From Lacibacter luteus (GTDB taxonomy: Bacteria > Bacteroidota > Bacteroidia > Chitinophagales > Chitinophagaceae), in the NCBI RefSeq assembly GCF_004118265.1, contig NZ_SDHW01000001.1:434001-498000 (forward strand): 64,000 bases of DNA, in the 5' to 3' direction. Positions 15,716 to 43,510 of the stretch are shown one piece after another (within the stretch, counting starts at the first letter, position 1; the number at the start of each line of letters is the position of its first letter). Position numbers and translations under genes: made by a program. The notes under the pieces were generated by a model. The model searched no databases. It worked only from the letters and a program-made list of their open reading frames with translations, and was not told the origin of the DNA.

Positions 15716-15734
15716 TGCTGTAACGATCACTTAC

Positions 15735-17873: not shown

Positions 17874-17900
17874 CTTGCAGTATAAACTAATATTTGAATT

Positions 17901-18647: not shown

Positions 18648-18665
18648 CAATAACCGATTTAATCC

Positions 18666-18702
18666 GCAGCAGTTTTGTAACACACAACTGCAAAACTGCT
18701 GC
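18666..18702. other. 12-base inverted repeat (RNA stem-loop) before GH115 gene
   Basis: gcagcagttttg (18666-18677) and caaaactgctgc (18691-18702) pair perfectly around a 13-base loop, 12 bases before the GH115 ATG and just after the SDR stop. No T-tract follows, so it is not a typical terminator. It may tune GH115 translation or protect the upstream message. Confidence 0.6.
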
Positions 18703-18714
18703 ATTGTTTGCATT

Positions 18715-21273: not shown

Positions 21274-21302
21274 ACTATTAACTACTGATTAAAACGAATA
21301 AC

Positions 21303-22418: not shown

Positions 22419-22447
22419 ACCAATTGCTTGCTCAATAAAATCAACTC

Positions 22448-23878: not shown

Positions 23879-23897
23879 CTCATCATTCATAACTCAT
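23870..23897 (+). repeat. AACTCAT-type heptamer tract at the end of the symporter gene
   Basis: Four heptamers: aactcat, aactcat, cattcat, aactcat. The symporter stop codon (23876-23878) lies within it. A related tract in reverse orientation is at 38246-38272, also over a stop codon. Confidence 0.7.
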
Positions 23898-23901
23898 TAT
23901 A

Positions 23902-24939
23902 ATGCCTGAAGACAGTATTGCACATATCGACTTTGAAGAATTAAATAAGAAAGCCATTTCACAACCGTTGGTGAAACATATTTACACAGCCGATCCATCG
24001 GCACATGTGTTCAACGGAAAAATTTATATCTATCCATCGCATGATGTGGATGCAGGTGATGCGTTTGATGATCTCGGCAGTCACTTCGCTATGGAAGATT
24101 ATCATATTCTTTCTATGGATTCACCAACAAGCGATGCCGTTGATAACGGAAATGCATTGCATGTAAACGATGTGCCTTGGGCATCAAAACAAATGTGGGC
24201 ACCTGATGCTGCAGAAAAAGATGGCAAGTATTACTTATTCTTTCCTGCAAAAGCACACGATGGTATTTTCAGAATTGGTGTGGCAGTAAGCGATTCACCT
24301 GTTGGTCCTTTCACCCCGCAACCGGAAGCGATCAAAAACAGTTTCTCCATTGATCCTGCTGTGTATAAAGATGAAGACGGAACTTATTACATGTACTTCG
24401 GTGGTATCTGGGGCGGACAGTTACAACGCTGGCGCAGCGGAACATTCAATGCAGAACAACCTGAAAGCCCGTTTGCATTTCTACCTGAAGCAAATGAACC
24501 TGCGTTATGTGCAAAGATCGCTAAGCTCACAGATGATCTGCTTGAATTTGCAGAAGAACCTAAAGATGTTGTGATCACAGATGAAAACGATGAGCCGCTT
24601 TTGCAAGGTGATACTGATAGAAGATTTTTTGAAGCAAGCTGGCTGCACAAATACAACGGGAAATATTATTTCTCTTATTCAACCGGTGATACACATTATC
24701 TCTGTTATGCCATTGGCGATAATCCGTATGGTCCGTTCAAATATGCAGGCAGAATTTTAGAACCTGTTGTTGGCTGGACATCGCACCACTCAATTTGTGC
24801 ATTTGAAGACAAGTGGTATTTGTTTTATCACGACAGCAGTTTGAGCAAAGGAGTAACACATTTACGCAGTGTGAAAGTAACGGAGCTTGTGCATGATGAA
24901 AATGGATTAATTAAAACGATCAAACCATATATCGATTAA
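23902..24939 (+). CDS. Intracellular GH43 enzyme (beta-xylosidase / arabinofuranosidase type)
   Basis: This 345-residue five-bladed beta-propeller has no signal peptide and is probably cytoplasmic. It would hydrolyse imported xylo- or arabinoxylo-oligosaccharides. The GH43 catalytic triad fits D31 (TADPSAHVF, base), D151 (SIDPAVY, pKa modulator) and E244 (FEASWLHK, acid). There is no C-terminal sandwich domain, unlike the next gene product. It lies directly after the symporter, which fits intracellular processing of the transported sugar. The exact specificity is open. Confidence 0.9.
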   Translation: MPEDSIAHIDFEELNKKAISQPLVKHIYTADPSAHVFNGKIYIYPSHDVDAGDAFDDLGSHFAMEDYHILSMDSPTSDAVDNGNALHVNDVPWASKQMWAPDAAEKDGKYYLFFPAKAHDGIFRIGVAVSDSPVGPFTPQPEAIKNSFSIDPAVYKDEDGTYYMYFGGIWGGQLQRWRSGTFNAEQPESPFAFLPEANEPALCAKIAKLTDDLLEFAEEPKDVVITDENDEPLLQGDTDRRFFEASWLHKYNGKYYFSYSTGDTHYLCYAIGDNPYGPFKYAGRILEPVVGWTSHHSICAFEDKWYLFYHDSSLSKGVTHLRSVKVTELVHDENGLIKTIKPYID

Positions 24940-24943
24940 CCAG

Positions 24944-26611: not shown

Positions 26612-26657
26612 ACAGATAAACAAACTTTTCAGATAAACCGGATCAAAACAATCAACA

Positions 26658-29273: not shown

Positions 29274-29306
29274 ACTTACTATTAACGATTACCTAAATCA
29301 TATGCC

Positions 29307-30683
29307 ATGAAAAAAAGAAATCAATCACGCAGAGAGTTTTTAGAAACATCGTTGAAAGCTTCTGCCCTGCTTGCCTTTCCTACCATTGTTCCTGCAACTG
29401 TGTTTGGAAAAAATGCACCGAGTAACCGCATTAATATTGCAGCCATTGGAACCGGACGTATTTCACGTGGGCATGATATGCCCGGTGTTTGGAAATATGA
29501 TTATGCACAAATCATGGCTGTTTGTGATGTTGATTTGAAGCGTGCAAATGAAGGTAAGCAACTGGTGAATGAATTTTACTCGAAGCGTGATAACAAACCT
29601 TTCGATGGCGTGAAAGTGTACACCGATTTCAGAGAAGTGTTACAAAACAAAGATGTGGATGCAGTGTTGATCAGTACACCCGATCATACACATGCCATGA
29701 TTGGTGTTGCAGCAGCACGTGCAGGAAAACATATTTATATGCAAAAGCCTGCATCATTAACGATTGCCGAAGGAAGAGTGATCAGTAATGTAGTGCAAAA
29801 GAGCGGCGTTAAATTTCAGATCGGCAGTCAGCAACGCAGTGCCGAACAATTCCGTTATGGAGCAGAACTTGTTCGTAATGGCCGTATCGGCGAATTAAAA
29901 ACGGTGTATGTTGGTTTACCCGGCGATCCTCCCGGCGGAAAGAAAGAAGAAATGCCGTTGCCAAAAGATTTTAATTATGATATGTGGCTTGCATCAACAC
30001 CTGAAGTGTATTATACTGAAGAAAGGGTGCATCCGCAGGTTGGGTATAATCGTCCGGGTTGGTTACGTTGCGAACAGTTTGGTGCAGGTATGATCACAGG
30101 CTGGGGTGCACATCATATTGATAGTGCTCATTGGGGCATGGGTATGGAAGCAAGTGGCCCTGTTGAAATATGGACAGACCATGTTGAGTTTGCAACAGGT
30201 GGCTTGTGGGATGTGCATGGTATTTTTAAAACAGGTGCCAAATATGCAAACGGTGTAACGATGATCGTTAGCAATGAATTTCAGAACGGGATTAAGTTTG
30301 AAGGAACAAAAGGCTGGGTATTTGTTTCAAGAGGTGATTACCAGGCTACATCAAGCGATCCGAATGTTGGAACAACACAGGCGAAAAAAATTGACGCAAG
30401 TGATCCTTCTATTCTTACATCGGTGATCGGTGAAAAAGAATTTCATTTTACCGTTAGTAAAGATCATCATGGCAATTGGTTAGAAGCCATTCGTGATAAC
30501 AAAAAAACGATTGCACCAGTTGAAGAAGCACATCGTGCATGCTCTGCCTGTTTATTGCATCATATTTCCATGAAGCTGAAACGCAAATTGCAATGGGATC
30601 CTGCGAAAGAGCAATTCATCAATGATGCAGAAGCAAACAAGATGTTATCCCGCCCGCAACGTAAAGGGTATGAAGTAAAATAA
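29307..30683 (+). CDS. Tat-exported Gfo/Idh/MocA oxidoreductase (first copy)
   Basis: This 458-residue NAD(P)-dependent oxidoreductase has a twin-arginine signal (QSRREFLETSLKASALLAF, residues 6-24), so it should be exported folded with cofactor. The Rossmann motif is IAAIGTGRISRGH near 43-55. The usual EKP is changed to QKP (YMQKPASLT), keeping the catalytic lysine. Long variants of this kind in Bacteroidota act on sugars, sugar acids or glycosides in the periplasm. The substrate is unknown. It is followed after 14 bases by an exported bicupin. Confidence 0.85.
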   Translation: MKKRNQSRREFLETSLKASALLAFPTIVPATVFGKNAPSNRINIAAIGTGRISRGHDMPGVWKYDYAQIMAVCDVDLKRANEGKQLVNEFYSKRDNKPFDGVKVYTDFREVLQNKDVDAVLISTPDHTHAMIGVAAARAGKHIYMQKPASLTIAEGRVISNVVQKSGVKFQIGSQQRSAEQFRYGAELVRNGRIGELKTVYVGLPGDPPGGKKEEMPLPKDFNYDMWLASTPEVYYTEERVHPQVGYNRPGWLRCEQFGAGMITGWGAHHIDSAHWGMGMEASGPVEIWTDHVEFATGGLWDVHGIFKTGAKYANGVTMIVSNEFQNGIKFEGTKGWVFVSRGDYQATSSDPNVGTTQAKKIDASDPSILTSVIGEKEFHFTVSKDHHGNWLEAIRDNKKTIAPVEEAHRACSACLLHHISMKLKRKLQWDPAKEQFINDAEANKMLSRPQRKGYEVK

Positions 30684-30697
30684 ACCAACACACATTT

Positions 30698-31453
30698 ATG
30701 AAACGACTACTTGCCATTCTCTTGATTACACCCTGTTTGGCTTTTGCGCAAAAGGATTCCATTTTATCCGGTGCTTACAGCTGGCAACAACCAACTGCAC
30801 AAAAAGGAAAAATCAGTTCTGTTGTGTTGCTTGAAGGAAAAGCATACGACTTTGAATGGATGCAATTTGCAGCAAACAGCATCGCCGGAAAAACAGAACT
30901 AAAACAAACTATTCCATCAAACCAGGAGCAATTGCTCATTGTAAAATCCGGGAGTATTACAATTCACTTGGGTGATTCCTCATTTGTATTAGCAGCCAAT
31001 AGTGTGGTTGTTTTAATGCCCGGAGAGAAATACAGTTTATCAAATACTGCAATCACAACAGCTGATTTTTTCAGCATGAAATACAGCAGCAAAAAATCTG
31101 CTGGGACACAACGTTCAGGAAAGTCGTTTGTAAAAATCTGGGAGAACATTCCGTTTAAACCCAATAACAACGGCGGCGGCCGTCGTGATTTTTTTGAACA
31201 GCCAACTGTTCAGCAAAAACGTTTTGAAATGCATGTTACCACCTTGAAAGAAGGATTAAAAAGTCGTGAACCACATACGCACCGTGCAGAAGAGATCATA
31301 CTCATGATCAATGGAGAAACAGAAATGCTGTTAGGGGACAAAACTCATAAAATTCCGGCTGGTGGTTTTTATTATGCAGGAACAAATGTATTACATGGAA
31401 TAAAAAATATCGGCACAAGCCCTTGTATGTATTTCGCCATTCAATTTGAATAA
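30698..31453 (+). CDS. Exported bicupin protein
   Basis: This 251-residue protein has a signal peptide (ending LAFA) and two cupin folds. The first (about 70-125) has few metal ligands. The second carries EPHTHRAEEI near 190 and HGIKN near 234, the likely metal-binding histidines and glutamate. KdgF-like uronate cyclisation or sugar isomerisation would be possible roles, but neither is shown. It lies between an exported oxidoreductase and a carbohydrate esterase. Confidence 0.75.
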   Translation: MKRLLAILLITPCLAFAQKDSILSGAYSWQQPTAQKGKISSVVLLEGKAYDFEWMQFAANSIAGKTELKQTIPSNQEQLLIVKSGSITIHLGDSSFVLAANSVVVLMPGEKYSLSNTAITTADFFSMKYSSKKSAGTQRSGKSFVKIWENIPFKPNNNGGGRRDFFEQPTVQQKRFEMHVTTLKEGLKSREPHTHRAEEIILMINGETEMLLGDKTHKIPAGGFYYAGTNVLHGIKNIGTSPCMYFAIQFE

Positions 31454-31457
31454 GAAC

Positions 31458-33395
31458 ATGAACTATTTAGCAACATCGTTACGCATTCTTTCCATTCTTG
31501 TTTTTGTAGTATTTACAACAAAAGCACAGGTAAAACTTCCGCAGATCGTTCGGGACAGTATGATCCTGCAAAGAGATGTGCCTGTAAACATCTGGGGATG
31601 GAGTGCAGCGAATGAAAAAGTAAGTGTAAAATTTAACGGCAAAACCTACAATACAAAAGGCAATGCCGAAGGTAAGTGGATCATAAAACTTCCTGCAACA
31701 AAAGCAGGTGGCCCTTATAACATTGATATTACTGCCAGCAACAAGATCAGCATCAAAGAAATTCTATTTGGCGATGTTTGGTTTTGCAGCGGACAATCGA
31801 ACATGGTGCATCAACTCAACATTCATGATGTAACCTATGCAAAAGACATAGCTGAAGCAAACGATCCGCAGATACGGCAATTCTGGATACCGACACTCAC
31901 CAATATGAATGCGCCACAACAGCAGTTGCCAAGTGGTTACTGGAAAGCAGCAGTTGGCGAAGATGTTCGTCCTTTCTCTGCAGTTGCTTATTTCTTTGCA
32001 AAGCATTTGTATGCACAATACAAAGTACCGATCGGTATCATTAATGCAAGTGTTGGCGGCACACCCATTGAAGCATGGACAAGTGAAGAAGGCTTAAAAG
32101 ACTTTGTAACCTTGCAAACTACCATTGCAAAAAATAAAGACACAGCTTATATCAACAGCTTTAACCGCAGACCAAGCAATACGCCACGCATTGCTCCTCC
32201 TGTTGATGCAGGTTTAGCAGGTGCATTAAAATGGTTTGATGTAAACTACAGTCCGAAAGGTTGGCGACCAATCAATATTCCCGGCTATTGGGAAGACCAG
32301 GGAATAAAAGATCTGAATGGTGTTGTTTGGTTTCGGAAAGAAATTGACATACCAGCTTCAATGGTTGGTAAAGTAGCGAAAGTTTTTCTTGGAAGAATTA
32401 TTGATGCAGATGAATTATACATCAACGGAAAATTAGTCGGCAACACAACTTATCAATATCCGCAACGGAGATACAGCGTTCCGGCAAACATATTAAAAGC
32501 AGGCAAAAATATTTTTGTTATCCGTGTTACAAACAATGCAGGCAAAGGCGGATTTGTAACAGATAAACCTTACTGCATTTTTTCAGGCAATGATACGGTT
32601 GATCTGAAAGGAACATGGCAATATAAAGTCGGGCTTGTAAACAGACCGTTTGCAGGCGGCGGGTTCGGTGGCGGCATCAGTGCACAAAATCAACCAACAG
32701 CTTTGTATAACGCCATGGTTGCTCCCGAAATAAATTATACCATCAAAGGTTTTTGTTGGTACCAGGGTGAAAGCAATGCAGGCCGCCCACAGGAATATGG
32801 TGCATTGTTAACCGCACTCATCAACGATTGGCGCACAAAATGGAAGCAAGGTACTTTACCATTCTTGTATGTGCAGCTTCCCGGTTTTATGGATTACAAT
32901 TACCTGCCTTCAGAAAGTGGATGGGCTGTATTACGTCACGAACAATTAAAAACACTTTCTGTTCCTAACACGGCAATGGCCGTTGCCATTGATCTTGGCG
33001 AGTGGAACGATATTCATCCGGATAATAAAAAAGATGTGGGTATTCGTTTAGCATTGGCAGCTAGAAAGCTTGCGTACAACGAAAACATGGTTTATTCAGG
33101 TCCGCTTTATCAATCAGCAAAAACAGAAGGTAATAAGATCATCATCTCCTTTACCAATATTGGCAGCGGATTAATCACAAATGATGGTGAAGAATTAAGT
33201 GAGTTTGCTATTGCCGGTGCCGACAAAAAATTTGTATGGGCTAAAGCAAAAATTGAAGGCGATAAAATAATTGTGTGGAATGATGAAGTGAAAGAACCAA
33301 TGTATGTACGTTATGCATGGGCCGATAATCCGGTGAATCCGAATCTGTACAATAAAGAAAACTTACCTGCATCGCCGTTTAAAACCGATCAATAG
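31458..33395 (+). CDS. Carbohydrate acetylesterase, sialate O-acetylesterase-like (SGNH fold)
   Basis: This 645-residue exported esterase has a signal peptide (MNYLATSLRILSILVFVVF, then TTKA). The SGNH motifs are visible: FGDVWFCSGQSNM (S114 nucleophile), WYQGESNAG near 432 and DIHPDNK near 515. A jelly-roll domain resembling those of GH2 enzymes is inserted in the middle (PGYWEDQGI to VIRVTNNAG, about 275-365). Such proteins are CE20-like or SASA family. In this cluster acetyl groups on xylan are the likely target. A TTG start at 31446 would overlap the bicupin gene; the ATG at 31458 is preferred. Confidence 0.87.
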   Translation: MNYLATSLRILSILVFVVFTTKAQVKLPQIVRDSMILQRDVPVNIWGWSAANEKVSVKFNGKTYNTKGNAEGKWIIKLPATKAGGPYNIDITASNKISIKEILFGDVWFCSGQSNMVHQLNIHDVTYAKDIAEANDPQIRQFWIPTLTNMNAPQQQLPSGYWKAAVGEDVRPFSAVAYFFAKHLYAQYKVPIGIINASVGGTPIEAWTSEEGLKDFVTLQTTIAKNKDTAYINSFNRRPSNTPRIAPPVDAGLAGALKWFDVNYSPKGWRPINIPGYWEDQGIKDLNGVVWFRKEIDIPASMVGKVAKVFLGRIIDADELYINGKLVGNTTYQYPQRRYSVPANILKAGKNIFVIRVTNNAGKGGFVTDKPYCIFSGNDTVDLKGTWQYKVGLVNRPFAGGGFGGGISAQNQPTALYNAMVAPEINYTIKGFCWYQGESNAGRPQEYGALLTALINDWRTKWKQGTLPFLYVQLPGFMDYNYLPSESGWAVLRHEQLKTLSVPNTAMAVAIDLGEWNDIHPDNKKDVGIRLALAARKLAYNENMVYSGPLYQSAKTEGNKIIISFTNIGSGLITNDGEELSEFAIAGADKKFVWAKAKIEGDKIIVWNDEVKEPMYVRYAWADNPVNPNLYNKENLPASPFKTDQ

Positions 33396-33444
33396 AAATT
33401 CTTAGCAAACAATCGATCTATAACACTTAACGCTCAACTGCCAA

Positions 33445-34716
33445 ATGAAAAAAAAGCAAAACCGCCTTGTGTGGATTACCGTAACCATGCATGTTCTTTT
33501 GTTCATGCTCGTTATAACTGCCTGTAAAAAGAAAGGAAATCCGGAACCATCACCCCGCCCTGTTGTTACACTCATTGCAGAAGTAACAATTTCTGCCAAT
33601 CAAACTTACCAGACAATTGACGGATTTGGTTGTGCTACTGTTTTCCGTCCATCGAATGCTTCGTTAACGAATGATGAACTGGACAGATTGTTTGGTAAAG
33701 CGAACGGGCAGATCGGTTTAAACATCTTACGCATCCGTATTGCAGAAGATGATTACTGGCGTTCACTCGAACTTGCAAATGCAAAAGGTGCTATACAACG
33801 TGGAGCTTTAGTACTGGCTACACCGTGGAGTCCGCCATCAAAATTCAAAACAAATAAAACGCTTATTGGCGGATCGCTGATTGCAGACAGTGGTGCAGCT
33901 TATGCAACTTACCTTAACGGTTTTGCAAATTATATGTCTGCGAACGGAGCGCCTGTTTATGCAGTATCTGTACAAAATGAACCGGATATTAAAGTGAGTT
34001 ATGAAAGTTGCGACTGGACAGCCGCTGAAATGCTGAACTTTCTTAAAACACATGGTCACCTTATAAGCAGTACAAAACTGATGGCACCGGAATCGTTCAA
34101 CAATAACCAAACCTACAGCAACACTTTGTTAAGTGATGCCGGTGCAGCTGCGAATATCGATTTAATCGGCGGTCATATTTATGGCAGCGGTATTACCGAA
34201 AATGCCTTGGCAAAAACATTGAATAAACCGGTATGGATGACAGAACATCTTGATACCAATTACACACATTTTGCAAGCATTGGCACAGCAGCAGAAATTC
34301 ACGACTGTTTTACCAAAGCAAATTTCAGTGCGTATATCTGGTGGTATGGCAAACGTTTTTACGGACCTATAGGTGAAGATGGCACTGTAACAAAACGAGG
34401 ATACATCATGTCGCAGTTTGCAAGATTTATTACTCCCGGTTCTGTACGTTTAGGTACAGGAGGCAATACACAAGCCGAGGCACGTGTATCGGCTTACAGA
34501 ACCAGTGCAGGAAAAAGAATTATTGTAGTGGTAAACAGTTATGCAGCCATTGTAAAGCAAACCATCAATATCAGCAATGCAACGGTTGGCGATTTTATTC
34601 CATACAGTACAACTGAAACTACCAATGTAGCTGCAGGAACAAAGATTACCGCAACAAACAACAGCTTTACCTACAACCTGCAACCGTTAAGTGTTACAAC
34701 TTTTGTAGAACAATAG
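33445..34716 (+). CDS. xynC: GH30 glucuronoxylanase
   Basis: This 423-residue enzyme has an N-terminal lipobox (VITAC, C27), so it is probably a lipoprotein. The GH30 core opens QTYQTIDGFGCATVF (54-68). Acid/base is E179 (VQNEPD) and nucleophile E267 (WMTEHLD). The following loop YIWWYGKRFYGP (298-309) keeps an arginine (R304) at about the place where subfamily 8 enzymes bind the glucuronic acid branch. It should therefore cut xylan next to MeGlcA branches. A C-terminal beta-sandwich completes the fold. Confidence 0.9.
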   Translation: MKKKQNRLVWITVTMHVLLFMLVITACKKKGNPEPSPRPVVTLIAEVTISANQTYQTIDGFGCATVFRPSNASLTNDELDRLFGKANGQIGLNILRIRIAEDDYWRSLELANAKGAIQRGALVLATPWSPPSKFKTNKTLIGGSLIADSGAAYATYLNGFANYMSANGAPVYAVSVQNEPDIKVSYESCDWTAAEMLNFLKTHGHLISSTKLMAPESFNNNQTYSNTLLSDAGAAANIDLIGGHIYGSGITENALAKTLNKPVWMTEHLDTNYTHFASIGTAAEIHDCFTKANFSAYIWWYGKRFYGPIGEDGTVTKRGYIMSQFARFITPGSVRLGTGGNTQAEARVSAYRTSAGKRIIVVVNSYAAIVKQTINISNATVGDFIPYSTTETTNVAAGTKITATNNSFTYNLQPLSVTTFVEQ

Positions 34717-34753
34717 ATCATCCGCATTTATTCAACAAACACAAACAGTCGTC

Positions 34754-36298
34754 ATGATAAAAAACTATTCACTTCTGCTTCTGCTCGTTGTTGTTAGCTA
34801 CACAACAACCGCACAACAAATTGATAGCAGTAAGTATCCAAAGCTTACCGTTTTTAACGCACAACAGGACCAGGCAAACATGATGCAACAACTTGGCATC
34901 AAAAAATTACGACCTGGCAGAAGTGGCAATGACAATGATCCGAATCATGCAAATTACGATGAGGCTTTGGCAACCCCTTGTCCGCAATTACCCGATGTGC
35001 TTACATTAAAGAATGGTACAAAGATCACTACTGCTGATCAGTGGTGGAAACAACGTCGTCCTGAATTAATTGAAGAGTTTGAACGTGAAGTGTATGGCCG
35101 CATTCCAAAGAATGTTCCGAAAGTAACATGGACGGTGAAGATACTCGACAGAGAAGTGGTGAATCGTATTCCTGTTATTGCAAAAGAAATTATCGGTCAT
35201 GTTGATAACAGTGTCTATCCATTGATCAATGTTGATATAAAAATGGTATTGGTTGTTCCAACAAATGTAAAAGGACCTGTACCTGTGTTGATGATGTTTG
35301 GCCGGCCTGTATTACCTGCACCTGCACAACCGTCGCCCGATGACCTGGAGAAAATAAATGCAGCGTACAAGGAAATGATGATCAAGTCTGATCCTGCAAT
35401 GAAAGAAATTTTTGAAAAGTATCCGGCTTATCAACCAATCACTCGTCTCCCCGCTCCTAACTTTTTTGCGCCTGCAAAACCTGATGATGAATTAACGCCG
35501 CAGGAAAGATTATTAGCTGCTGGTTGGGGTTATGTTACGATCGATCCGGGAACAATACAACCGGATAATGGTGCAGGTTTAACAAGAGGTATTATTGGCT
35601 TAACCAATATGGGTCAGCCACGCAAGCCGGAAGATTGGGGTGCATTGCGTGCATGGGGATGGGGCGCCAGTCGTGCATTGGATTATTTGGAAACCGATCC
35701 ATTGGTAAATGCAAAACAAGTGGGTATTGAAGGTGTGTCGAGATATGGCAAAGCTGCATTGGTAACAATGGCATTCGATCAACGTTTTTCAATTGGATTA
35801 ATTGGTTCATCAGGAAAAGGTGGTGCAACATTGCATCGTCGGGTGTTTGGTGAGTCAGTTGAAAATTTAACCGGCGGTGGCGGTTATCATTGGATGGCCG
35901 GTAATTATTTAAAATACGGAACGGAAGAATCTTCATTCGGTAAAAAAACAGGTTGTGATCTTCCGGTTGATTCGCATGAACTCATCGCTTTGTGTGCTCC
36001 CCGTCTTACATTTATCAGTTATGGCATTCCTGAAAAAGGTGATGCCAACTGGCTCGATCAGAAAGGAAGTTACCAGGCAACCATCGCTGCAGGAACTGTA
36101 TTTAAATTATTAGGTGCAAAAGATCTTGGTGTAAGCAATGATTACCTTGTTGAAAAAATGCCACCGATGCTGACTGATATGCTGAATGGTCATTTAGCAT
36201 GGCGACAACATGATGGCGGGCATACAGACGCACCGAATTTTAATTTTTTTATTCCATGGGCAAGTAAGGGATTAAACTATGAAAAGAAACTACCTTAA
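34754..36298 (+). CDS. Glucuronoyl esterase, CE15
   Basis: This 514-residue exported alpha/beta hydrolase breaks ester links between lignin alcohols and the glucuronic acid of xylan. A signal peptide is visible (residues 1-20). The nucleophile motif is GVSRYGK (S329), matching the family pattern GCSRxGK with V in place of C. The catalytic histidine is in QHDGGHTDAPNF (H490). The length is longer than fungal CE15 and normal for bacterial ones. It follows GH30 after 37 bases. Confidence 0.9.
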   Translation: MIKNYSLLLLLVVVSYTTTAQQIDSSKYPKLTVFNAQQDQANMMQQLGIKKLRPGRSGNDNDPNHANYDEALATPCPQLPDVLTLKNGTKITTADQWWKQRRPELIEEFEREVYGRIPKNVPKVTWTVKILDREVVNRIPVIAKEIIGHVDNSVYPLINVDIKMVLVVPTNVKGPVPVLMMFGRPVLPAPAQPSPDDLEKINAAYKEMMIKSDPAMKEIFEKYPAYQPITRLPAPNFFAPAKPDDELTPQERLLAAGWGYVTIDPGTIQPDNGAGLTRGIIGLTNMGQPRKPEDWGALRAWGWGASRALDYLETDPLVNAKQVGIEGVSRYGKAALVTMAFDQRFSIGLIGSSGKGGATLHRRVFGESVENLTGGGGYHWMAGNYLKYGTEESSFGKKTGCDLPVDSHELIALCAPRLTFISYGIPEKGDANWLDQKGSYQATIAAGTVFKLLGAKDLGVSNDYLVEKMPPMLTDMLNGHLAWRQHDGGHTDAPNFNFFIPWASKGLNYEKKLP

Positions 36299-36302
36299 CA
36301 GC

Positions 36303-37106
36303 ATGAAGAAATTATTTGTTGCAGTTTGTTGCGCATTCAGTTTGTTAAATGCAGTTCATGCACAAACCAATGCTGCATGGAAAGGAAAGAAAGCTGCAGT
36401 GGTAATTACCTATGATGATGCAATCGATCAGCATTTAGATAATGCTGTTCCTGTTCTTGATTCATTGGGATTAAAAGCGACGTTTTATCTGACAGCCTTT
36501 TCGCAATCAATGCAAAAGCGATTGAATGAGTGGAAGAATCTTTCTGTAAGAGGTCATGAGTTGGGTAATCACACATTGTTTCATCCCTGCGTTGGTAATA
36601 TGCCCGGTCGTGAATGGGTGAGTAAAACAAACGACCTGAACAATTATACTGTTAAGCGAATAGAGAACGAAATGCTGATGACCAATCTCTTTTTGCAATC
36701 GCTGGATGGAAAAACCAAACGCACATTTGCCTTTACCTGTGGCGATATGAAGATCGCTGACTCTTCCTTTATCAATGGTATGAAAAAAGATTTTGTTGCT
36801 GCAAGAGCAGTACGCAATGAAATGCATAAGATAAACGAAGTGGATCTGTACAACGTCGATTGTTATGTGGTGAACAATCACAGTTTTGAAGAAATGAAAA
36901 CTTGGGTTGATAAAGCCATGCAGACAAATTCATTACTGGTGATCCTGTTTCATGGTGTGGGCGGTGGCAATGGCTTGGATGTAACAATTGAAAATCATCG
37001 TAAGCTTCTCGCCTACATCAAACAAAAAGAGAAAGAGATATGGGTTGCTCCTATGATAGATGTGGCAGAACATGTACTGCAATGGCAACAACAAAATAAA
37101 AAATGA
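36303..37106 (+). CDS. Polysaccharide deacetylase, CE4-like
   Basis: This 267-residue exported protein has a signal peptide (residues 1-20, ending AVHA). The NodB-fold motif 1 is TYDDA (D38, D39) and motif 2 is H90-x3-H94 (HTLFH), giving the usual Asp-His-His metal site. A late histidine (LLVILFHGVGG) matches motif 5. It may deacetylate xylan. An ATG at 36279 would overlap CE15; the ATG at 36303 matches the signal peptide. Confidence 0.85.
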   Translation: MKKLFVAVCCAFSLLNAVHAQTNAAWKGKKAAVVITYDDAIDQHLDNAVPVLDSLGLKATFYLTAFSQSMQKRLNEWKNLSVRGHELGNHTLFHPCVGNMPGREWVSKTNDLNNYTVKRIENEMLMTNLFLQSLDGKTKRTFAFTCGDMKIADSSFINGMKKDFVAARAVRNEMHKINEVDLYNVDCYVVNNHSFEEMKTWVDKAMQTNSLLVILFHGVGGGNGLDVTIENHRKLLAYIKQKEKEIWVAPMIDVAEHVLQWQQQNKK

Positions 37107-37132: not shown

Positions 37133-38248
37133 ATGAGTCAGCAACAATCACGAAGAAGTTTTCTGCAAACGCTGGGATTAGCAGGTTTAAGTATTCCGTT
37201 GATCTCTGCGGGCAACTGTAATGAACAACAATCAAAACAAAAAAGCATGCAAAACAAAGATGGAAAACTTGGTATTGCCTTGGTTGGTCTTGGCGGTTAT
37301 GCCGGCGGACAGCTTGCACCTGCTTTGCAGCAAACCGAACATTGCTATCTGGCAGGCATTGTAACAGGCACTCCTTCCAAAGCAATTGCATGGAAAGAAA
37401 AATACAATCTCCCTGATAAGAATATTTACAATTACGAGAATTACGATTCAATTAAGGACAATCCGGATATTGATATCATTTATGTTGTATTGCCAAATCA
37501 CATGCATGCTGAGTACACAGTTCGTGGAGCAAAAGCAGGCAAACATATCATTTGTGAAAAACCCATGGCCATTACCGTTGCAGAGTGTGATCAGATGATT
37601 GCTGCATGCAAAGAAGCAGGTAAACAATTATCGATCGGTTATCGTTTGCATTTTGATCCGTACAATCTTGAAATGAAACGGCTGGGTCAGCAGAAAGTAT
37701 ATGGAGATATTAAAAAGATCAGCTCTGGTTTTTCATTTGTTGCACAAAAAGGAATCTGGCGATTGGATAAAAAAATTGCCGGCGGTGGCCCGTTGATGGA
37801 TCTTGGTGTTTACTGTCTGCAGGCTGTGATGTACACTACAGGTATGGAACCGGTTGCAGTAACTGCACAAACATTCCCTATCAGCGATCCTGATAAGTTT
37901 AAAGACATTGAAGAAACTCTTGCATGGCAAATGGAAATGCCGAATGGATTGATCGCAGAATGCAGAACCAGTTATTCAGAAAGCAGTAACTTCCTGAAAG
38001 CAGAAGCAGAAAAAGGATGGTTTGAATTGCAACCTGCATTTAATTATTCAGGATTGAAAGGCAATACATCAGGTGGACAAATGGATTATCCAAGATTATC
38101 GCAGCAAGCTAAACAGATGGATGCATTTGCATTGTCAGTTAAAAACAAACAGCAAAGCATTGTGCCCGGTGAAATGGGCAGAAGAGATGTAAAGATCATT
38201 GAAGCGATTTATGAAGCAATGAAGACGGGGAAAAGAGTGACCGTATGA
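37133..38248 (+). CDS. Tat-exported Gfo/Idh/MocA oxidoreductase (second copy, possible pentose dehydrogenase)
   Basis: This 371-residue oxidoreductase has a twin-arginine signal (SRRSFLQTLGLAGLSIPL, residues 6-23). The Rossmann motif GIALVGLGGYAGGQLAPAL is near 47-65, EKPMAIT holds the catalytic lysine, and DLGVYCLQAV near 223 is typical of the GFOR-like branch. Zymomonas glucose-fructose oxidoreductase, of the same family, is also exported by Tat. The next genes form a pentonate pathway, so oxidation of xylose or arabinose to a lactone in the periplasm is a good hypothesis. The stop codon overlaps a heptamer tract. Confidence 0.85.
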   Translation: MSQQQSRRSFLQTLGLAGLSIPLISAGNCNEQQSKQKSMQNKDGKLGIALVGLGGYAGGQLAPALQQTEHCYLAGIVTGTPSKAIAWKEKYNLPDKNIYNYENYDSIKDNPDIDIIYVVLPNHMHAEYTVRGAKAGKHIICEKPMAITVAECDQMIAACKEAGKQLSIGYRLHFDPYNLEMKRLGQQKVYGDIKKISSGFSFVAQKGIWRLDKKIAGGGPLMDLGVYCLQAVMYTTGMEPVAVTAQTFPISDPDKFKDIEETLAWQMEMPNGLIAECRTSYSESSNFLKAEAEKGWFELQPAFNYSGLKGNTSGGQMDYPRLSQQAKQMDAFALSVKNKQQSIVPGEMGRRDVKIIEAIYEAMKTGKRVTV

Positions 38249-38272
38249 GTAATGAATGATGAGAGATGAGTT
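38246..38272 (-). repeat. AACTCAT-type heptamer tract over a stop codon
   Basis: On the plus strand this reads atgagta, atgaatg, atgagag, atgagtt. On the minus strand it belongs to the same AACTCAT/CATTCAT family as 23870-23897. It begins at the stop codon of the preceding oxidoreductase gene. Confidence 0.6.
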
Positions 38273-38302
38273 GTGCTTGCTCTCCGTAGCTTTAGCGAAG
38301 AA

Positions 38303-38340
38303 GTGAATGGTGAATGGTCAATGGTGAATAGTGAATAAAG
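38303..38340 (+). repeat. GAATRGT heptamer tract
   Basis: gaatggt, gaatggt, caatggt, gaatagt, gaataaag. Same family as 4867-4935 and 49544-49576. Confidence 0.7.
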
Positions 38341-38462
38341 AACTGTGGACATTCAACTATCCCCTCTTGGGAGGGGCGAGTAACAGCATGACTGAAGATA
38401 GTACATTGGGGTGGGTCCTTCGACTTCGCTCAGGATCAATTGAATTACAAAACGTACAAGTG

Positions 38463-38504
38463 TCGAGACGCTTTCGGTCTCGATGCCGACCAGAGCGTCG
38501 GCAT
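38463..38504. repeat. Double hairpin, REP-like repeat
   Basis: Two adjacent perfect hairpins: tcgagac/gtctcga (38463-38469, 38477-38483) and atgccgac/gtcggcat (38483-38490, 38497-38504). The second shares CCGRCCARAGCGTCGG with 45996-46015. Confidence 0.65.
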
Positions 38505-38559
38505 GCGACGCAACAAAAGTTTAATAGTAGCATAAAAGCTAAGTAAATAAATAAATTAT

Positions 38560-40278
38560 ATGTCACGACGATTACGCAGCCACGATTGGTTTGGCCGCAA
38601 AGACAAAGACGGAATTATTTACCGCAGCTGGATGAAGAATCAGGGCATGCCAACAGATATGTTTGATGGCAGACCGGTGATCGGCATTTGCAATACGTTC
38701 AGTGAACTCACACCTTGCAATGCACATTTTCGTGATCATGCAGAAGCAGTGAAACGTGGCGTGTTGGAAGCAGGTGGTTTTCCTGTTGAGTTTCCGATCA
38801 TGAGTTTGGGTGAGACTTTGCTAAAACCAACAGCGATGTTGTTTCGCAATTTGGCAAGTATGGATGCAGAAGAAAGTATTCGTGGTAACCCGATCGATGG
38901 CGTGGTGTTATTGACCGGTTGCGATAAAACAACTCCGAGTACTGTGATGGGTGCAGCGAGTGTTGGCTTGCCTACGATAGTTGTTCCGGGTGGACCAATG
39001 TTAAACGGACGTTACAAAGGACAAACCATCGGAAGTGGTACACATGTGTGGAAGTTTGATGAAGACATGAAGACGGGAAAGATGACGCAGGAAGAATGTG
39101 AATATGCAGAAAGTTGTATGAGCCGTAGCATTGGTCATTGTATGACGATGGGCACTGCAAGTACCATGGCTGTGATGGTTGAATCATTGGGTTTAACATT
39201 GAGTGGCGCATCTGCTATTCCTGCAGCTGACAGTCGTAAAAAAGTAATGGCACAGTTGAGTGGAAGGCGCATTGTTGAAATGGTGAAAGAGAATTTAACC
39301 ATCGATAAAATATTAACAAGAGAAGCATTTGAAAATGCCATTAAAGTAAATGCAGCCGTTGGTGGTTCTTCAAACTTTATTATTCATCTCGCTGCCATTG
39401 CCGGAAGAATTGGCGTTGATCTGAAGTTGGATGATTTTGATGCGATCGGTAGTAAGATCCCTCTCCTGCTCAACCTGATGCCTTCAGGAAAATATTTGAT
39501 GGAAGATTTTTATTATGCAGGTGGATTACCAGTGATCTTAAATGAACTGAAAAAAGAATTGCATCAAAACGTTATTACTGTTACAGGAAAAAATCACCAG
39601 GAGAATATTGTTGGCACAACAGATAACTATAATGCTGATGTAATTGCTGCATACAACAAACCATTTATTCCGGAAGCTGGCATTGTGGTGGTGAAAGGCA
39701 ATCTTGCAGAGAATGGTGCTGTTATTAAACCATCGGCTGCAACACCTGCATTAATGAAACATACCGGCAGAGCAGTGGTGTTTGAAAGTATTGAAGATTA
39801 TCATGCACGTGTGGATGATCCTGAATTGGATATTGATGAAAACTGTGTAATGGTGTTGAAATATGTTGGCCCGGTTGGTTACCCCGGTATGCCGGAAGTG
39901 GGTAATATGGCTTTGCCGAAAAAGATCTTGCAGAAAGGAATTAAAGATATGGTACGCATCAGCGATGGAAGAATGAGTGGTACAGCGTATGGCACAGCAG
40001 TATTGCATGTAAGCCCTGAAAGTGCTATTGGTGGTGCATTGGCATTGGTGCAGAATGGTGATATGATCGAACTAAATGTTGAGAAGCGATTATTGCACTT
40101 GCATGTAAGTGATGAAGAATTGGCCAAACGAAGAGCAGCCTGGGCATTACCTAAACCTGCAGCCACTCGTGGTTATGTGAGCATGTACATTAAACATGTG
40201 ATGGGTGCAGATAAAGGTGCTGATCTTGATTTTCTGCAAGGAAGTTCAGGATCAGAGGTCACAAGAGATTCACATTAA
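38560..40278 (+). CDS. Sugar-acid dehydratase, IlvD/Edd family (xylonate/arabonate type)
   Basis: This 572-residue cytoplasmic iron-sulfur dehydratase probably converts a pentonate (D-xylonate or L-arabonate) to its 2-keto-3-deoxy acid. Cluster cysteines fit C53 (TPCNAH), C121 (LLTGCDKTTP) and C194 (IGHCMTMG). The motif PGGPMLNGRYKGQ near 143 and the C-terminal ISDGRMSGTAYGT are typical. The pentonate branch is suggested by length, the short first segment SHDWFGRKDKDG, and the neighbours. Dihydroxy-acid dehydratase (IlvD) proper is less likely because no branched-chain amino acid genes are near. Confidence 0.88.
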   Translation: MSRRLRSHDWFGRKDKDGIIYRSWMKNQGMPTDMFDGRPVIGICNTFSELTPCNAHFRDHAEAVKRGVLEAGGFPVEFPIMSLGETLLKPTAMLFRNLASMDAEESIRGNPIDGVVLLTGCDKTTPSTVMGAASVGLPTIVVPGGPMLNGRYKGQTIGSGTHVWKFDEDMKTGKMTQEECEYAESCMSRSIGHCMTMGTASTMAVMVESLGLTLSGASAIPAADSRKKVMAQLSGRRIVEMVKENLTIDKILTREAFENAIKVNAAVGGSSNFIIHLAAIAGRIGVDLKLDDFDAIGSKIPLLLNLMPSGKYLMEDFYYAGGLPVILNELKKELHQNVITVTGKNHQENIVGTTDNYNADVIAAYNKPFIPEAGIVVVKGNLAENGAVIKPSAATPALMKHTGRAVVFESIEDYHARVDDPELDIDENCVMVLKYVGPVGYPGMPEVGNMALPKKILQKGIKDMVRISDGRMSGTAYGTAVLHVSPESAIGGALALVQNGDMIELNVEKRLLHLHVSDEELAKRRAAWALPKPAATRGYVSMYIKHVMGADKGADLDFLQGSSGSEVTRDSH

Positions 40279-40334
40279 GATAGAAACACTGATAACGCTG
40301 ATGCGACTGATCAAAACAGATAAATACAAATGAC

Positions 40335-41366
40335 ATGAAGCCGTATAAATCACTATTCTTTTTTTCAACAATGATGTTGCTGTCCTGCAACAACCCATCA
40401 GAACAAAAGCAAGAAACAATGTATAAGACCACCAGAACAATTGAGCGGCTTGATCCTGCTATCAATGCAATCATTTCTGATTCTGCAAAAATTGAAATTA
40501 TTGCTGAAGGATTTGAATGGAGTGAAGGTCCTCTTTGGCTGGAGAAACAACAAATGCTCATCTTCAGTGATGTGCCGATGAATACAATTTATAAATGGAC
40601 GGAAGAAAAAGGTAAAGAAGTTTATCTGAAACCATCCGGTTATACAGGCTCCGAACCTTCAGTATGTAAAGAGCCGGGCAGCAATGGCTTAACATTCGAC
40701 AACAATGGCAATCTTGTTTTATGTCAACATGGTGACAGAAGAATGGCAAGGATGGATGCACCTCTTGACAAGCCAACAGCAAAATTTAGTACGCTTGCAG
40801 ATAAATATCAAGGCAAACGTTTCAGCAGCCCGAATGATGCAGTGTATAACAAAGCCGGTGAATTGTTTTTTACCGATCCGCCGTATGGTTTGCAAACACA
40901 GGACGATACGGATTCAAAAAAAGAAATCAAACACAATGGTGTTTATAAGGTGATGAAAGATGGAACAGTTAAGCTGCTTATTGATTCAATAACAAGACCC
41001 AATGGTCTGGCATTTTTACCAGGAGAGAAAAAGCTTATTGTTGCATGCAGTGATCCTGCTTTTCCCAATTGGTATATCTATGACCTGAATGTTGACACAT
41101 TTGAAATTGATAATGGCAGAATATTTTACAGTGCAAGTGAAGAGGCTAAAACTATGGGCGGCTTACCAGATGGTTTAAAGATTGATAAAAATGGGAACAT
41201 ATTTGCAACAGGTCCGGGTGGTGTTTATATATTTAACAGTGATGGGAAAAAGCTGGGCATGATTAAACTGGAGAACTCCGCAAGTAATTGTGCTTTATCG
41301 CCAGATGAAAAGACATTGTATGTTACGAATGATATGTATTTACTAAGAATTAAACTAAGAGATTAA
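40335..41366 (+). CDS. SMP-30/gluconolactonase-like lactonase, lipoprotein
   Basis: This 343-residue six-bladed propeller probably opens a sugar-acid lactone (xylono- or arabinonolactone). The N-terminus ends in a lipobox (MLLSC, C18), so it is membrane-anchored outside the cytoplasm. Metal-site residues are visible in FEWSEGPLW, FSSPNDAVY, RPNGLAFLP and GGLPDGLKI. It lies between the dehydratase and the FAH-fold gene. Its export matches the Tat signal of the upstream oxidoreductase, which would make the lactone in the same compartment. Confidence 0.88.
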   Translation: MKPYKSLFFFSTMMLLSCNNPSEQKQETMYKTTRTIERLDPAINAIISDSAKIEIIAEGFEWSEGPLWLEKQQMLIFSDVPMNTIYKWTEEKGKEVYLKPSGYTGSEPSVCKEPGSNGLTFDNNGNLVLCQHGDRRMARMDAPLDKPTAKFSTLADKYQGKRFSSPNDAVYNKAGELFFTDPPYGLQTQDDTDSKKEIKHNGVYKVMKDGTVKLLIDSITRPNGLAFLPGEKKLIVACSDPAFPNWYIYDLNVDTFEIDNGRIFYSASEEAKTMGGLPDGLKIDKNGNIFATGPGGVYIFNSDGKKLGMIKLENSASNCALSPDEKTLYVTNDMYLLRIKLRD

Positions 41367-41367
41367 A

Positions 41368-42195
41368 ATGAAGCTTTACAAAACAAAAACCTGTGCTGTA
41401 GTTGAACATAACAACTTGTATTATGCTATTCATCGTGATTGGCAAACGCTGGTAAACGTTGACAATCTTTATCAACAGCTAAGTGAGCTGATTGCAACAT
41501 CACCTGCAGGAACAGATACGTTAATAAAAGATATTGAAGCACCAATGGGTCCGCAACAGGAACTCTGGGCCTGTGGTGTTACATACTTACGCAGCAAGGT
41601 TGGACGGCAGGAAGAAAGTAAAGCCAGCGGTGGTGCCGATTTTTATGCAAAGGTTTATGAAGCCGATCGTCCTGAATGTTTTTTTAAAGCAACTGCTCAT
41701 CGTGTGGTTGGTCATTTGGCTAAAGTGCGTATCCGCAAAGATTCCACCTGGGATGTACCCGAACCGGAGTTGACATTGGTTGTAAGTTCATCAGGCAAAA
41801 TCGTAGGCTATACAATTGGTAACGATATGAGCAGCCGAAGTATTGAAGGTGAAAATCCATTGTACCTGCCACAGGCAAAAACATACGATGCCTGTGCAGC
41901 ACTCGGTCCCTGCATTTATGTAACAGAACAAGCACTCTCTCCTTCTACAAGCATTGCTATGCAGATAGCACGAAATGGAAAAACTGTTTTTGAAGGAACC
42001 ATCACTATCGATCAAATGAAACGTACAGTAGAAGAACTCGCTTCATTTATTTATCGTGAAGCATCGTTTCCACATGGTTGCTTTATTATGACAGGAACAG
42101 GAATTGTGCCCGGCAGTGATTTCACTTTGCAAAGTGGCGATGAGATCAGCATCAGCATCGATTCCATCGGCACACTAAAAAATACCGTGCAATAA
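41368..42195 (+). CDS. FAH-superfamily 2-keto-3-deoxy-pentonate dehydratase (KdaD/XylX-like)
   Basis: This 275-residue cytoplasmic protein has the FAH metal-site pattern E132-x-E134 (PEPELT) and D153 (IGNDMSSRSIEGENPLY). The opening WACGVTYLRS (67-76) and the NPLYLPQAKTYD segment resemble Sulfolobus 2-keto-3-deoxy-D-arabinonate dehydratase and the XylX group. These convert the keto-deoxy acid to alpha-ketoglutarate semialdehyde (Weimberg route). It is one base after the lactonase gene and 4 bases before the permease gene, so the three are probably co-translated. No semialdehyde dehydrogenase gene is in the window. Confidence 0.82.
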   Translation: MKLYKTKTCAVVEHNNLYYAIHRDWQTLVNVDNLYQQLSELIATSPAGTDTLIKDIEAPMGPQQELWACGVTYLRSKVGRQEESKASGGADFYAKVYEADRPECFFKATAHRVVGHLAKVRIRKDSTWDVPEPELTLVVSSSGKIVGYTIGNDMSSRSIEGENPLYLPQAKTYDACAALGPCIYVTEQALSPSTSIAMQIARNGKTVFEGTITIDQMKRTVEELASFIYREASFPHGCFIMTGTGIVPGSDFTLQSGDEISISIDSIGTLKNTVQ

Positions 42196-42199
42196 TTAC

Positions 42200-43510
42200 T
42201 TGACCTTTCTTATTATCATACTTGCCATTGCCTTACAGGTTTTCTTAACCGTAAAAAAAGTAAGCCCGTTTCTATCCCTGCTGATCGTAGCGATCGTTGC
42301 CGGTCTTGCCTTAGGCATGCCTGCTGCAGATTTACTCAAGTCAATTGAAAAAGGTGTGGGCAGTACATTGGGTGGACTTGCACTTATTCTTTGCTTGGGT
42401 GCAGTACTGGGAAAAATTTTAGAAGCAAGTGGTGCAGCAGAAAAAATTGCTATCACACTCATTAAACGTTTTGGCGAAAAAAATATACAATGGGCTGTAT
42501 TGCTCACCGGTTTTTTAATTGGCATTCCGCTTTATTACAATGCCGGTTTTGTAATACTCGTGCCGCTTGTTTTTATGTTAGCAAAGAAAACAGGCTTGCC
42601 GCTTTTGTACATTGCGATTCCAATGGCAGCATCGCTCAGTACTATGCATTGCTTTCTGCCGCCACATCCCGGCCCGGTAGTATTGGTAAATGCATTCAAA
42701 GCAGATATGGGTAAGGTATTGATCTATGGAATACTCATTGCCATTCCTGCTGTAATTGTTGCCGGGCCTTTGCTTGGCCGAATGGTAAAAGGAATCACAT
42801 CATCACAAAGCAATTTATTTTCTCCTGTTGAAACAGAATTAAAAGAACTGCCTGCGGCTGCTCCAAGTTTTTTTGTTGCATTATTGCCTGTGTTATTGAT
42901 CACTCTTGCAGTTATTGCACATAATTTTTTAGCTGAAGGAATACTTAAAACAATACTACTGTTTATAGGCGATTCAACCATTGCTTTACTTATTGCTGTG
43001 TTACTGGCTTTTTATCTTTTTGGTATATGCAGAAACATTGCAGTGGATAAACTGATGAAATGGTTGAGCGATGGCATCTCCGGCATTGCTATGATCTTAC
43101 TCATCATTACAGCAGGCGGCGTATTTAAACAGGTATTACAGGATAGTGGTACCGGTGCATACATTGCATCATTCAGCAGTAAATGGCAAATGCCGCCGTT
43201 GATCTTTGCATGGGTTGTTACTGCGTTGCTGCGTGTTACTATTGGTTCAGCAACAGTTGCCGGTATTACAGCAGCAGGTATTGTTGCTCCGTTAGTAACA
43301 AGTGGAGCAGCTTCTCCGGAGTTGATGGTGTTGGCTGTAGGCAGTGGCAGTGTGTTTGGTTCGCACATCAACGATTCAGGTTTCTGGATGTACAAAGAGT
43401 TTTTTAAACTATCGCTTAAACAAACCTTTCTTTCCTGGACGGTGATGGAAACTGTTATTTCGATACTGGGATTAGCAGGCGTATTGGTCATCCATTCACT
43501 TCAATCATAA
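42200..43510 (+). CDS. GntP-family sugar-acid permease
   Basis: This 436-residue inner-membrane protein has 12-14 hydrophobic helices. Family features: SPFLSLLIVAIVAGLALGM near 21-39, GIPLYYNAGFVILVPLVF near 109-126, MHCFLPPHPGPV near 149-160, and GSGSVFGSHINDSGFW near 385-400. Gluconate permeases of this family also take other aldonates, so xylonate or arabonate is a good guess here. No ATG lies near the N-terminus; the start is taken as the TTG at 42200, 4 bases after the FAH stop, giving the expected helix 1. Confidence 0.9.
   Translation: MTFLIIILAIALQVFLTVKKVSPFLSLLIVAIVAGLALGMPAADLLKSIEKGVGSTLGGLALILCLGAVLGKILEASGAAEKIAITLIKRFGEKNIQWAVLLTGFLIGIPLYYNAGFVILVPLVFMLAKKTGLPLLYIAIPMAASLSTMHCFLPPHPGPVVLVNAFKADMGKVLIYGILIAIPAVIVAGPLLGRMVKGITSSQSNLFSPVETELKELPAAAPSFFVALLPVLLITLAVIAHNFLAEGILKTILLFIGDSTIALLIAVLLAFYLFGICRNIAVDKLMKWLSDGISGIAMILLIITAGGVFKQVLQDSGTGAYIASFSSKWQMPPLIFAWVVTALLRVTIGSATVAGITAAGIVAPLVTSGAASPELMVLAVGSGSVFGSHINDSGFWMYKEFFKLSLKQTFLSWTVMETVISILGLAGVLVIHSLQS

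Follow-up and report, generated by a model that had tools for sequence, protein, structure and literature searches.

Does a bacterium with a glucuronoxylan locus oxidise the liberated pentose outside the cell and degrade the resulting acid inside? This question is raised by five adjacent genes of Lacibacter luteus, in a stretch of 64,000 nucleotides (contig NZ_SDHW01000001.1, positions 434,001 to 498,000; here called the window). The genome assembly has 28 contigs with a total length of 5.07 Mb and a completeness of 99.95%; its nearest named relatives belong to the Chitinophagaceae. A preliminary description, made from the letters of the window, had listed in order an oxidoreductase of the Gfo/Idh family with a twin-arginine translocation (Tat) signal, a pentonate dehydratase, a lipoprotein lactonase, a dehydratase of the fumarylacetoacetate hydrolase (FAH) family and a GntP-type permease; genes, order, common strand and span were borne out by the open reading frames (ORFs) and by Pfam and NCBIfam matches. 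Family assignments and gene order make it reasonably likely that the architecture as a whole serves a compartment-split oxidative (Weimberg-type) route for a xylan-derived pentose, most likely D-xylose. Xylose as the substrate, localisation of the proteins and retention of the cofactor are points which we infer. The identity of the oxidoreductase and the alditol predicted as a second product go beyond the preliminary description.

The oxidoreductase and its export signal

Comparison with the PDB by phmmer placed the oxidoreductase next to aldose-aldose oxidoreductase (AAOR) of Caulobacter crescentus (5a02, 280 bits), followed by Zymomonas glucose-fructose oxidoreductase (GFOR, 240 bits), with the next match at 106 bits. 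An AlphaFold model from 17 input sequences (mean pLDDT 83.7, pTM 0.81, residues 1-37 below 50) had as its top Foldseek match 5a03, which is AAOR with xylose, at 40% identity, a TM-score of 0.93 by target and 1.8 Å. By sequence and predicted fold the protein is assigned to the AAOR/GFOR branch, with Caulobacter AAOR as nearest solved relative. K143 (the Lys of an EKP motif) and Y227 (the Tyr of a G-V/I-Y motif), which we take to be catalytic, were present in 92 of 92 homologues of an alignment that includes some loci twice. Thr78 and Lys83 were kept in 90 and 91 of the 92, respectively; their site is presumably the position where GFOR binds the 2'-phosphate of NADP. The genome encodes one good copy, the second-best match scoring 61 bits. 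The best NCBIfam model was the Gfo6 D-xylose 1-dehydrogenase (NF041392; 177.5 bits, cut-off 350). NCBIfam scores for glycoside 3-dehydrogenases and inositol dehydrogenases were weak, and both assignments were rejected.

The family and the twin-arginine motif SRRSFLQ (residues 6-12) agree with the Tat-exported Gfo/Idh protein described earlier, now refined to the AAOR/GFOR branch. The motif was found at the N-terminus of 25 of 30 AAOR orthologues, the protein of the window among them, and in 11 of the 12 named loci (see below) with linked dehydratase or FAH genes; TatC is encoded in the genome. From this motif and from the lipobox of the lactonase we infer a periplasmic placement of both proteins. 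Residue 29 of the oxidoreductase (37217-37219), past the Tat signal, is a cysteine; it is aligned in 43 of the 92 homologues, some of which, e.g., that of L095, have a good lipobox, and part of the AAOR family may be Tat lipoproteins.

AAOR is stated to contain bound NADP (PMC9795676), and membership of this bound-NADP branch predicts an alditol as co-product. Tat exports folded proteins and would be a natural means of carrying an enzyme with its cofactor to the periplasm, a compartment in which free NADP would not be available. The Caulobacter enzyme has been studied in vitro and in yeast; according to PMC4628093 it carries a Tat signal, converted xylose in yeast to equal molar amounts of xylonate and xylitol, and in extracts formed xylitol from xylose without added cofactor.

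One structure of Caulobacter AAOR, 5A05, holds maltotriose (table in PMC9795676), and xylanase and beta-xylosidase-type families are encoded upstream of the block. Both would suit an enzyme that oxidises the reducing ends of xylo-oligosaccharides, the oligomers with aldonic acid ends being trimmed before import. We regard this as quite improbable, since no enzyme for aldonic-ended oligomers was identified and the cited papers report activity on monomers.

Lactonase, dehydratases and permease

The protein described earlier as a lipoprotein lactonase belongs to the SGL family; the nearest PDB entry, an exported gluconolactonase, scored 134 bits, and no NCBIfam model matched. A lipobox, LLSC, follows a hydrophobic stretch. 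Read by eye, it was present in 11 of 11 proteins, the lactonase of the window and all 10 orthologues inspected from stretches of relatives, a count which leaves out distant SGL-like proteins (26% identity, L111 and L194). A putative aldonolactonase step is present in the block.

Among PDB chains the IlvD/EDD dehydratase scored highest with 8ej0 (864 bits) and then with the Rhizobium L-arabinonate dehydratase 5j83 (789 bits); the Caulobacter D-xylonate dehydratase 5oyn gave 450 bits. It passes the threshold of NF004784, a broad subfamily, and with 857.8 bits stays under that of the L-arabinonate dehydratase equivalog NF009559 (882). The three-cysteine pattern noted earlier was found as C53, C121 and C194, together with S473; these align with C59, C127, C200 and S480 of the Rhizobium enzyme, as named in PMC9795676, and were present in 38 of 38 homologues. 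In a second subgroup, about 70% identical and marked by MGFVHRSWLRNQG near the start, the dehydratase occupies the same position (L043, L047, L050-L052, L055, L058 and L113); it may differ in substrate stereochemistry.

The FAH protein matched KdaD of Sulfolobus (2q18) at 198 bits and the next chain, 9kkt, at 67 bits. Of its earlier label, KdaD/XylX-like, the first half stands, and the assignment is corrected to the KdaD type. E103, E132, E134, D153 and K171 correspond to E114, E143, E145, position 164 and K182 of KdaD, i.e., to the metal ligands and the Glu/Lys dyad, and all five were kept in 36 of 36 homologues. PMC9795676, which names these five catalytic residues, writes Glu at position 164, whereas the PDB chain has Asp, as does the protein of the window. 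A diketo-deoxy-acid hydrolase was considered and rejected (NF053535, 32 bits against a cut-off of 500), KdaD being far ahead. Neither this protein nor the dehydratase has a hydrophobic N-terminal segment.

According to PMC9795676 the FAH-type enzyme acts on the D-form, the known L-form enzyme having a different fold, and a D-pentonate is therefore favoured as substrate. The argument is not strict, because the pathway of Haloferax volcanii serves both xylose and arabinose: PMC8551123 describes its lactonase and pentonate dehydratase as common to both sugars and names one 2-keto-3-deoxypentanonate dehydratase. The same architecture could thus have L-arabinose, or another aldose from arabinoglucuronoxylan, as main substrate. 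The order of the dehydratase matches, 8ej0 and then the Rhizobium enzyme, would suit this. So would a run of pathway genes in L113, whose neighbours are genes for an AraR-like regulator and an FGGY kinase (both by Pfam) and a GH51 arabinofuranosidase-like gene (by eye); in L115 and L116 the genes at this place are identical or almost identical in size. The FAH type, the tie of the loci to carbohydrate-active enzymes (CAZymes) for xylan and the dehydratase score under the L-arabinonate cut-off speak for D-xylose, and we consider such a main substrate unlikely.

The permease, described earlier as GntP-type, scored 503.7 bits with TIGR00791 (cut-off 292.75), well above what the family demands; a simple hydropathy count gave 12 hydrophobic segments. 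Its family is named after gluconate, and IlvD/EDD pentonate dehydratases also accept hexonates (PMC9795676), so that a pathway for gluconate or galactonate might be considered. An FAH partner of this type yields 2-oxoglutarate semialdehyde from a five-carbon acid and no 2-keto-3-deoxygluconate aldolase or kinase is among the five genes; a hexonate pathway is given scarcely any weight.

Gene order, relatives and a second xylan cluster

The five genes (Table 1) are separated by 311, 56, 1 and 4 bp. Given such spacing, genes two to five (56, 1 and 4 bp apart) seem to be transcribed together. A repeat-like stretch within the 311-bp gap has a single occurrence in the window. The block was said to lie inside a xylan cluster, which agrees with the glucuronoxylan locus directly upstream. 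That locus contains genes for LacI, GH67, SDR, GH115, GH10, MFS, two GH43 and GH3 proteins, then Gfo/Idh, cupin, SASA esterase, a GH30 glucuronoxylanase-like protein, a CE15-type glucuronoyl esterase and a CE4 polysaccharide deacetylase, whose gene ends 26 bp before that of AAOR. No PQQ-dependent sugar dehydrogenase (PQQ: pyrroloquinoline quinone) is among the annotated plus-strand ORFs from 14687 to 43510.

Table 1. Positions in the window of the five-gene block and of the locus upstream
Feature	Position	Strand	Basis
AAOR/GFOR-type Gfo/Idh aldose oxidoreductase, Tat motif	37133..38248	+	PDB phmmer, AlphaFold/Foldseek, Pfam/NCBIfam
IlvD/EDD pentonate dehydratase (putative), [2Fe-2S] type	38560..40278	+	PDB matches, NF004784, cysteines
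SMP-30/gluconolactonase-type lactonase (putative), lipoprotein	40335..41366	+	Pfam SGL 138 bits, 3dr2, lipobox
FAH-family 2-keto-3-deoxy-D-pentonate dehydratase (putative), KdaD/DPDHT-like	41368..42195	+	PDB 2q18, five catalytic residues
GntP-family sugar-acid symporter (putative), TTG start in ORF list	42200..43510	+	TIGR00791, 12 hydrophobic segments
Upstream glucuronoxylan locus	14687..37106	+	Pfam/NCBIfam

A second Gfo/Idh protein with an RR motif is encoded in the xylan locus (29307-30683); the BT_2158 family of glycoside 3-dehydrogenases is its nearest model, with 143 bits, far under the cut-off of 750. A mannonate dehydratase (12766-13935, over its cut-off) and an SDR protein (17901-18647), near GH67 and GH115, may account for the glucuronate side of glucuronoxylan breakdown. 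Positions 46056-60423 hold a rhamnogalacturonan-type pectin locus with two GDSL esterases, two PL11-type lyases, GH28, MFS, GH88-like and DUF4450 proteins.

A comparison of gene order in related genomes had been proposed, and the five-gene set was found to recur, which places it above chance. The family survey comprised 294 genomes, 103 with an FAH gene and 191 without. Annotation against reference proteins covered 21 stretches around FAH genes, 20 from 18 genomes of the family and one from a second cluster of the window genome; AAOR (>50% identity) was present in 4, lactonase in 10 and an aldehyde dehydrogenase (47% identity or more) in 9. The gene order of the window is repeated exactly in L039, and with one or two inserted genes in L048, L049 and L053. 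AAOR, dehydratase, lactonase, FAH and GntP genes are also present in L117, from the named relative Sediminibacterium goheungense. Between AAOR and dehydratase, L048 has a gene for a GH88-family protein (5845-6963, by Pfam) and L049 one that looks alike (14269-15396). In L040 and L044-L046 the order is aldehyde dehydrogenase, dehydratase, lactonase, (esterase), FAH, GH10 and GntP; AAOR lies 16.7-18.5 kb from this block and, in the three cases inspected (L187-L189), beside CE4 and mostly CE15 genes. Runs of Cytophagales type (Flammeovirgaceae and Cyclobacteriaceae records) in L113, L115 and L116 read aldehyde dehydrogenase, dehydratase, FAH, GntP and AAOR, and two of them have LacI and GH67 next.

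Linkage of AAOR to FAH genes was counted from two tables, with the rows of the window genome itself excluded; all figures are among the matches listed. At 60% identity or more there were 32 AAOR proteins, 29 in genomes with FAH, 18 on the contig of the FAH gene and 15 within 25 kb of it. The corresponding numbers were 18, 11, 2 and 2 at 53-60% and 58, 49, 12 and 1 at 46-53% identity; at 40-46% they were at least 40, 35, 8 and 2. A scan of named genomes considered the best 80 of 589 relatives; some of these loci stem from the same genomes as the FAH stretches, L130 and L131 are near-identical and from one contig, and L167, without an AAOR ORF, was placed in the lowest band. Where AAOR identity was at least 64%, 11 of the 16 loci had dehydratase or FAH genes within 10 kb of it; at 60-64% these were 1 of 13 and at less than 60% 0 of 51. 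The corresponding counts for homologues of the xylan-locus CAZymes were 13 of 16, 2 of 13 and 1 of 51 loci, and for the lactonase 6, 1 and 1. Many Bacteroidota (L132-L185; e.g., Pontibacter, Rufibacter, Hymenobacter, Dyadobacter) encode AAOR homologues of 53-60% identity that have no pentonate genes in the surrounding 10 kb. In L133 (Arcticibacter) a lactonase of the window type directly follows AAOR.

The preliminary description had noted that the semialdehyde dehydrogenase is not in the window and suggested a search elsewhere; a candidate was found in the second xylan cluster of the same genome (C11:184000-203900), beside a near-identical dehydratase. This cluster encodes AraC, SusC, SusD, aldehyde dehydrogenase, dehydratase, a CE1-type esterase, FAH, a GH10 xylanase and GntP; the dehydratase, FAH and GntP proteins are 99.3%, 68% and 87% identical to those of the window. 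The candidate (L038:6227-7813) is a Pfam Aldedh protein with best PDB matches 3v4c (456 bits) and 1eyy (452 bits), a neighbourhood to which we take alpha-ketoglutarate semialdehyde dehydrogenase (KGSADH) type III to belong. Since NCBIfam models for KGSADH matched at only 109-112 bits (cut-offs 750-770), the assignment rests on context. Homologues of at least 57% identity were in genomes with an FAH gene in 17 of 18 cases.

The two dehydratase genes (38560-40278 and L038:7852-9570) are 98.1% identical over 1703 bp; our reading is a recent duplication, or gene conversion confined to that gene. Beside the second cluster (L196:7407-14066, i.e., G000:C11:177406-184065) an SGL-like lipoprotein (by eye) is followed by four genes, for an enolase-superfamily dehydratase with a Tat motif, an RraA-like protein with a signal-like N-terminus, a BASS/PanS-like transporter and a gluconokinase-like FGGY kinase. 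The nearest model of this dehydratase is galactonate dehydratase; it and the kinase scored below cut-off. In L187-L189 and L191 the four genes are found again, flanked by AAOR and AraC; L190 has at least part of the set. Their content suggests a second sugar-acid route with an exported dehydratase; the idea that this block next to AraC is a set for xylitol, i.e., the reduction side, was rejected in view of it. A search for a GlcNAc epimerase gave nothing useful.

The proposed route, its difficulties and known pathways

The split route would run as follows. AAOR, folded with tightly bound NADP(H) and exported by Tat, would oxidise periplasmic xylose to xylonolactone and recover its cofactor on another sugar molecule, which would be reduced to an alditol (e.g., xylitol). 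The lipoprotein lactonase would open the lactone and GntP would import xylonate. In the cytoplasm, as strong homology suggests, the IlvD/EDD and then the FAH dehydratase would yield 2-oxoglutarate semialdehyde, which the aldehyde dehydrogenase of the second cluster, to judge from its context, could convert to 2-oxoglutarate. Two compartments marked by export signals, lactone opening outside combined with a sugar-acid permease, and formation of 2-oxoglutarate semialdehyde from a pentonate in the cytoplasm had all been put forward from the letters; sequence and gene order support them, with a D-pentonate as the acid. More tentatively, the block may perform a redox-neutral periplasmic dismutation for catabolism, which we hold possible rather than probable: AAOR would turn two xyloses into xylonolactone and xylitol without an electron carrier, the oxidised half alone would be imported and led to 2-oxoglutarate, and the alditol would be left outside, stored or shared.

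Several observations weigh against the split route. The 311-bp gap may separate the AAOR gene from the other four. The dehydratase is closer to L-arabinonate dehydratase than to the D-xylonate enzyme of Caulobacter. Xylonate was not detected when Caulobacter AAOR was assayed in vitro (PMC4628093). No alditol-using gene was identified beside the block (one candidate was sought): the alcohol dehydrogenase adjoining GntP in L039 had no match in the window genome at E 1e-20. Absence of an isomerase route in this genome is refuted by a xylose isomerase, which passes its cut-off with 665 bits, and a neighbouring kinase, which has 308 bits where the xylulokinase model asks for 380; the oxidative route would be additional, and not needed for xylose as such. 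In the family survey, xylose isomerase occurred in 96 of the 103 genomes with FAH, compared with 82 of the 191 without, and an aldehyde dehydrogenase of the second-cluster kind in 96 of 103 and 76 of 191, respectively; shared genome size and a plant-sugar lifestyle could explain part of the co-occurrence with FAH.

The export motif is not universal among AAOR orthologues either. The Tat motif was absent in 5 of the 30 AAOR orthologues; signal-less homologues were seen in xylan-CAZyme loci (L110, L122, L126, L134 and L169), and that of L134 adjoins a lipoprotein lactonase and other pathway genes. Such loci may be natural cases of oxidation shifted to the cytoplasm. For the block itself, a soluble NADP-dependent xylose dehydrogenase with an unused RR motif, and hence a wholly cytoplasmic Weimberg pathway, would be in keeping with the haloarchaeal Gfo6 model as best NCBIfam match; its score is far under the cut-off, and the motif in most orthologues and the lipobox in every lactonase counted make this reading very improbable.

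The source of the pentonate is a further difficulty. AAOR at 60% identity or more is lacking in 73 genomes with FAH, which, together with its presence in 4 of the 21 FAH stretches, indicates that the source is often elsewhere. The lactonase accompanied AAOR in just 6 of the 16 closest named loci, and is missing from the L113, L115 and L116 runs. Genes of the GSDH family, including a PQQ-type GSDH protein, are present elsewhere in the genome, and the latter could perform the oxidation. The block might then scavenge pentonates made by other organisms or by another oxidase (PQQ-type GSDH, products of lytic polysaccharide monooxygenases), and AAOR would mainly make polyol, as Zymomonas GFOR does. 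The lack of AAOR in the second cluster and in 17 of the 21 FAH stretches would fit. In 15 of the 18 same-contig cases listed, a close AAOR lies within 25 kb of FAH, and a lactonase is useful only where lactone is present; scavenging is, in our opinion, unlikely.

The preliminary description held that the known dehydrogenase is cytoplasmic and that a split version would be new. The first point is incomplete and the second is not supported: in Pseudomonas taiwanensis VLB120, according to PMC11252243, the Weimberg pathway is split, periplasmic PQQ-dependent Gcd oxidises xylose, GntP was shown by knock-outs and complementation to carry D-xylonate, and an MFS protein also imports xylonate. The route proposed here shares with it periplasmic oxidation and lactone opening, GntP among the importers and cytoplasmic later steps. 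In contrast to Gcd, which feeds ubiquinone, the oxidant would be a Tat-motif enzyme of the Gfo/Idh family, from the branch with bound NADP; it would have no link to respiration and is predicted to give an alditol as co-product. The genes here lie in a xylan locus. The split itself is known; what differs is the oxidant, a putatively Tat-exported enzyme of the bound-NADP branch.

Caulobacter AAOR (CC1225; 5a02-5a06) is nearest in sequence and fold and has in common the Tat signal and the conserved Lys and Tyr. The Caulobacter xylXABCD operon has the same overall chemistry with an IlvD/EDD enzyme, and includes an FAH-type enzyme, XylX being of a longer FAH class. Unlike the block, it uses an SDR dehydrogenase (PMC4628093). 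The oxidative pentose pathways of Haloferax and Sulfolobus are similar in having a relative of the Gfo6-type dehydrogenase and a KdaD-type FAH dehydratase. We know of no exported step in them. Their pentonate dehydratases belong to the enolase superfamily (PMC9795676), unlike the IlvD/EDD enzyme here. Zymomonas GFOR is likewise an exported Gfo/Idh fold with bound cofactor. To our knowledge no pentonate pathway is attached to it. It prefers glucose with fructose (PMC4628093).

Among the titles, abstract openings and passages of open-licence papers that were covered, no report of this arrangement was found. The passages of PMC5507952, on two Bacteroidetes genomes, contain none; PMC11775059 reports a semialdehyde dehydrogenase (called XylA) from a Bacteroidetes bacterium, tested in yeast.

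The physiological role of Caulobacter AAOR is called unclear in PMC4628093, whereas its relative in the window is linked to a lactonase, a permease and pentonate dehydratases. The conserved link to pentonate dehydratases and permease, and often to lactonase, in xylan loci offers a testable role for AAOR, and dismutation, if true, would be the first physiological role for enzymes of this type. The results suggest that xylan-degrading Bacteroidota may use an oxidative pathway for pentoses in addition to the isomerase one. If this is true, the split Weimberg pathway would extend past PQQ enzymes, and release of alditol by xylan degraders would be predicted.

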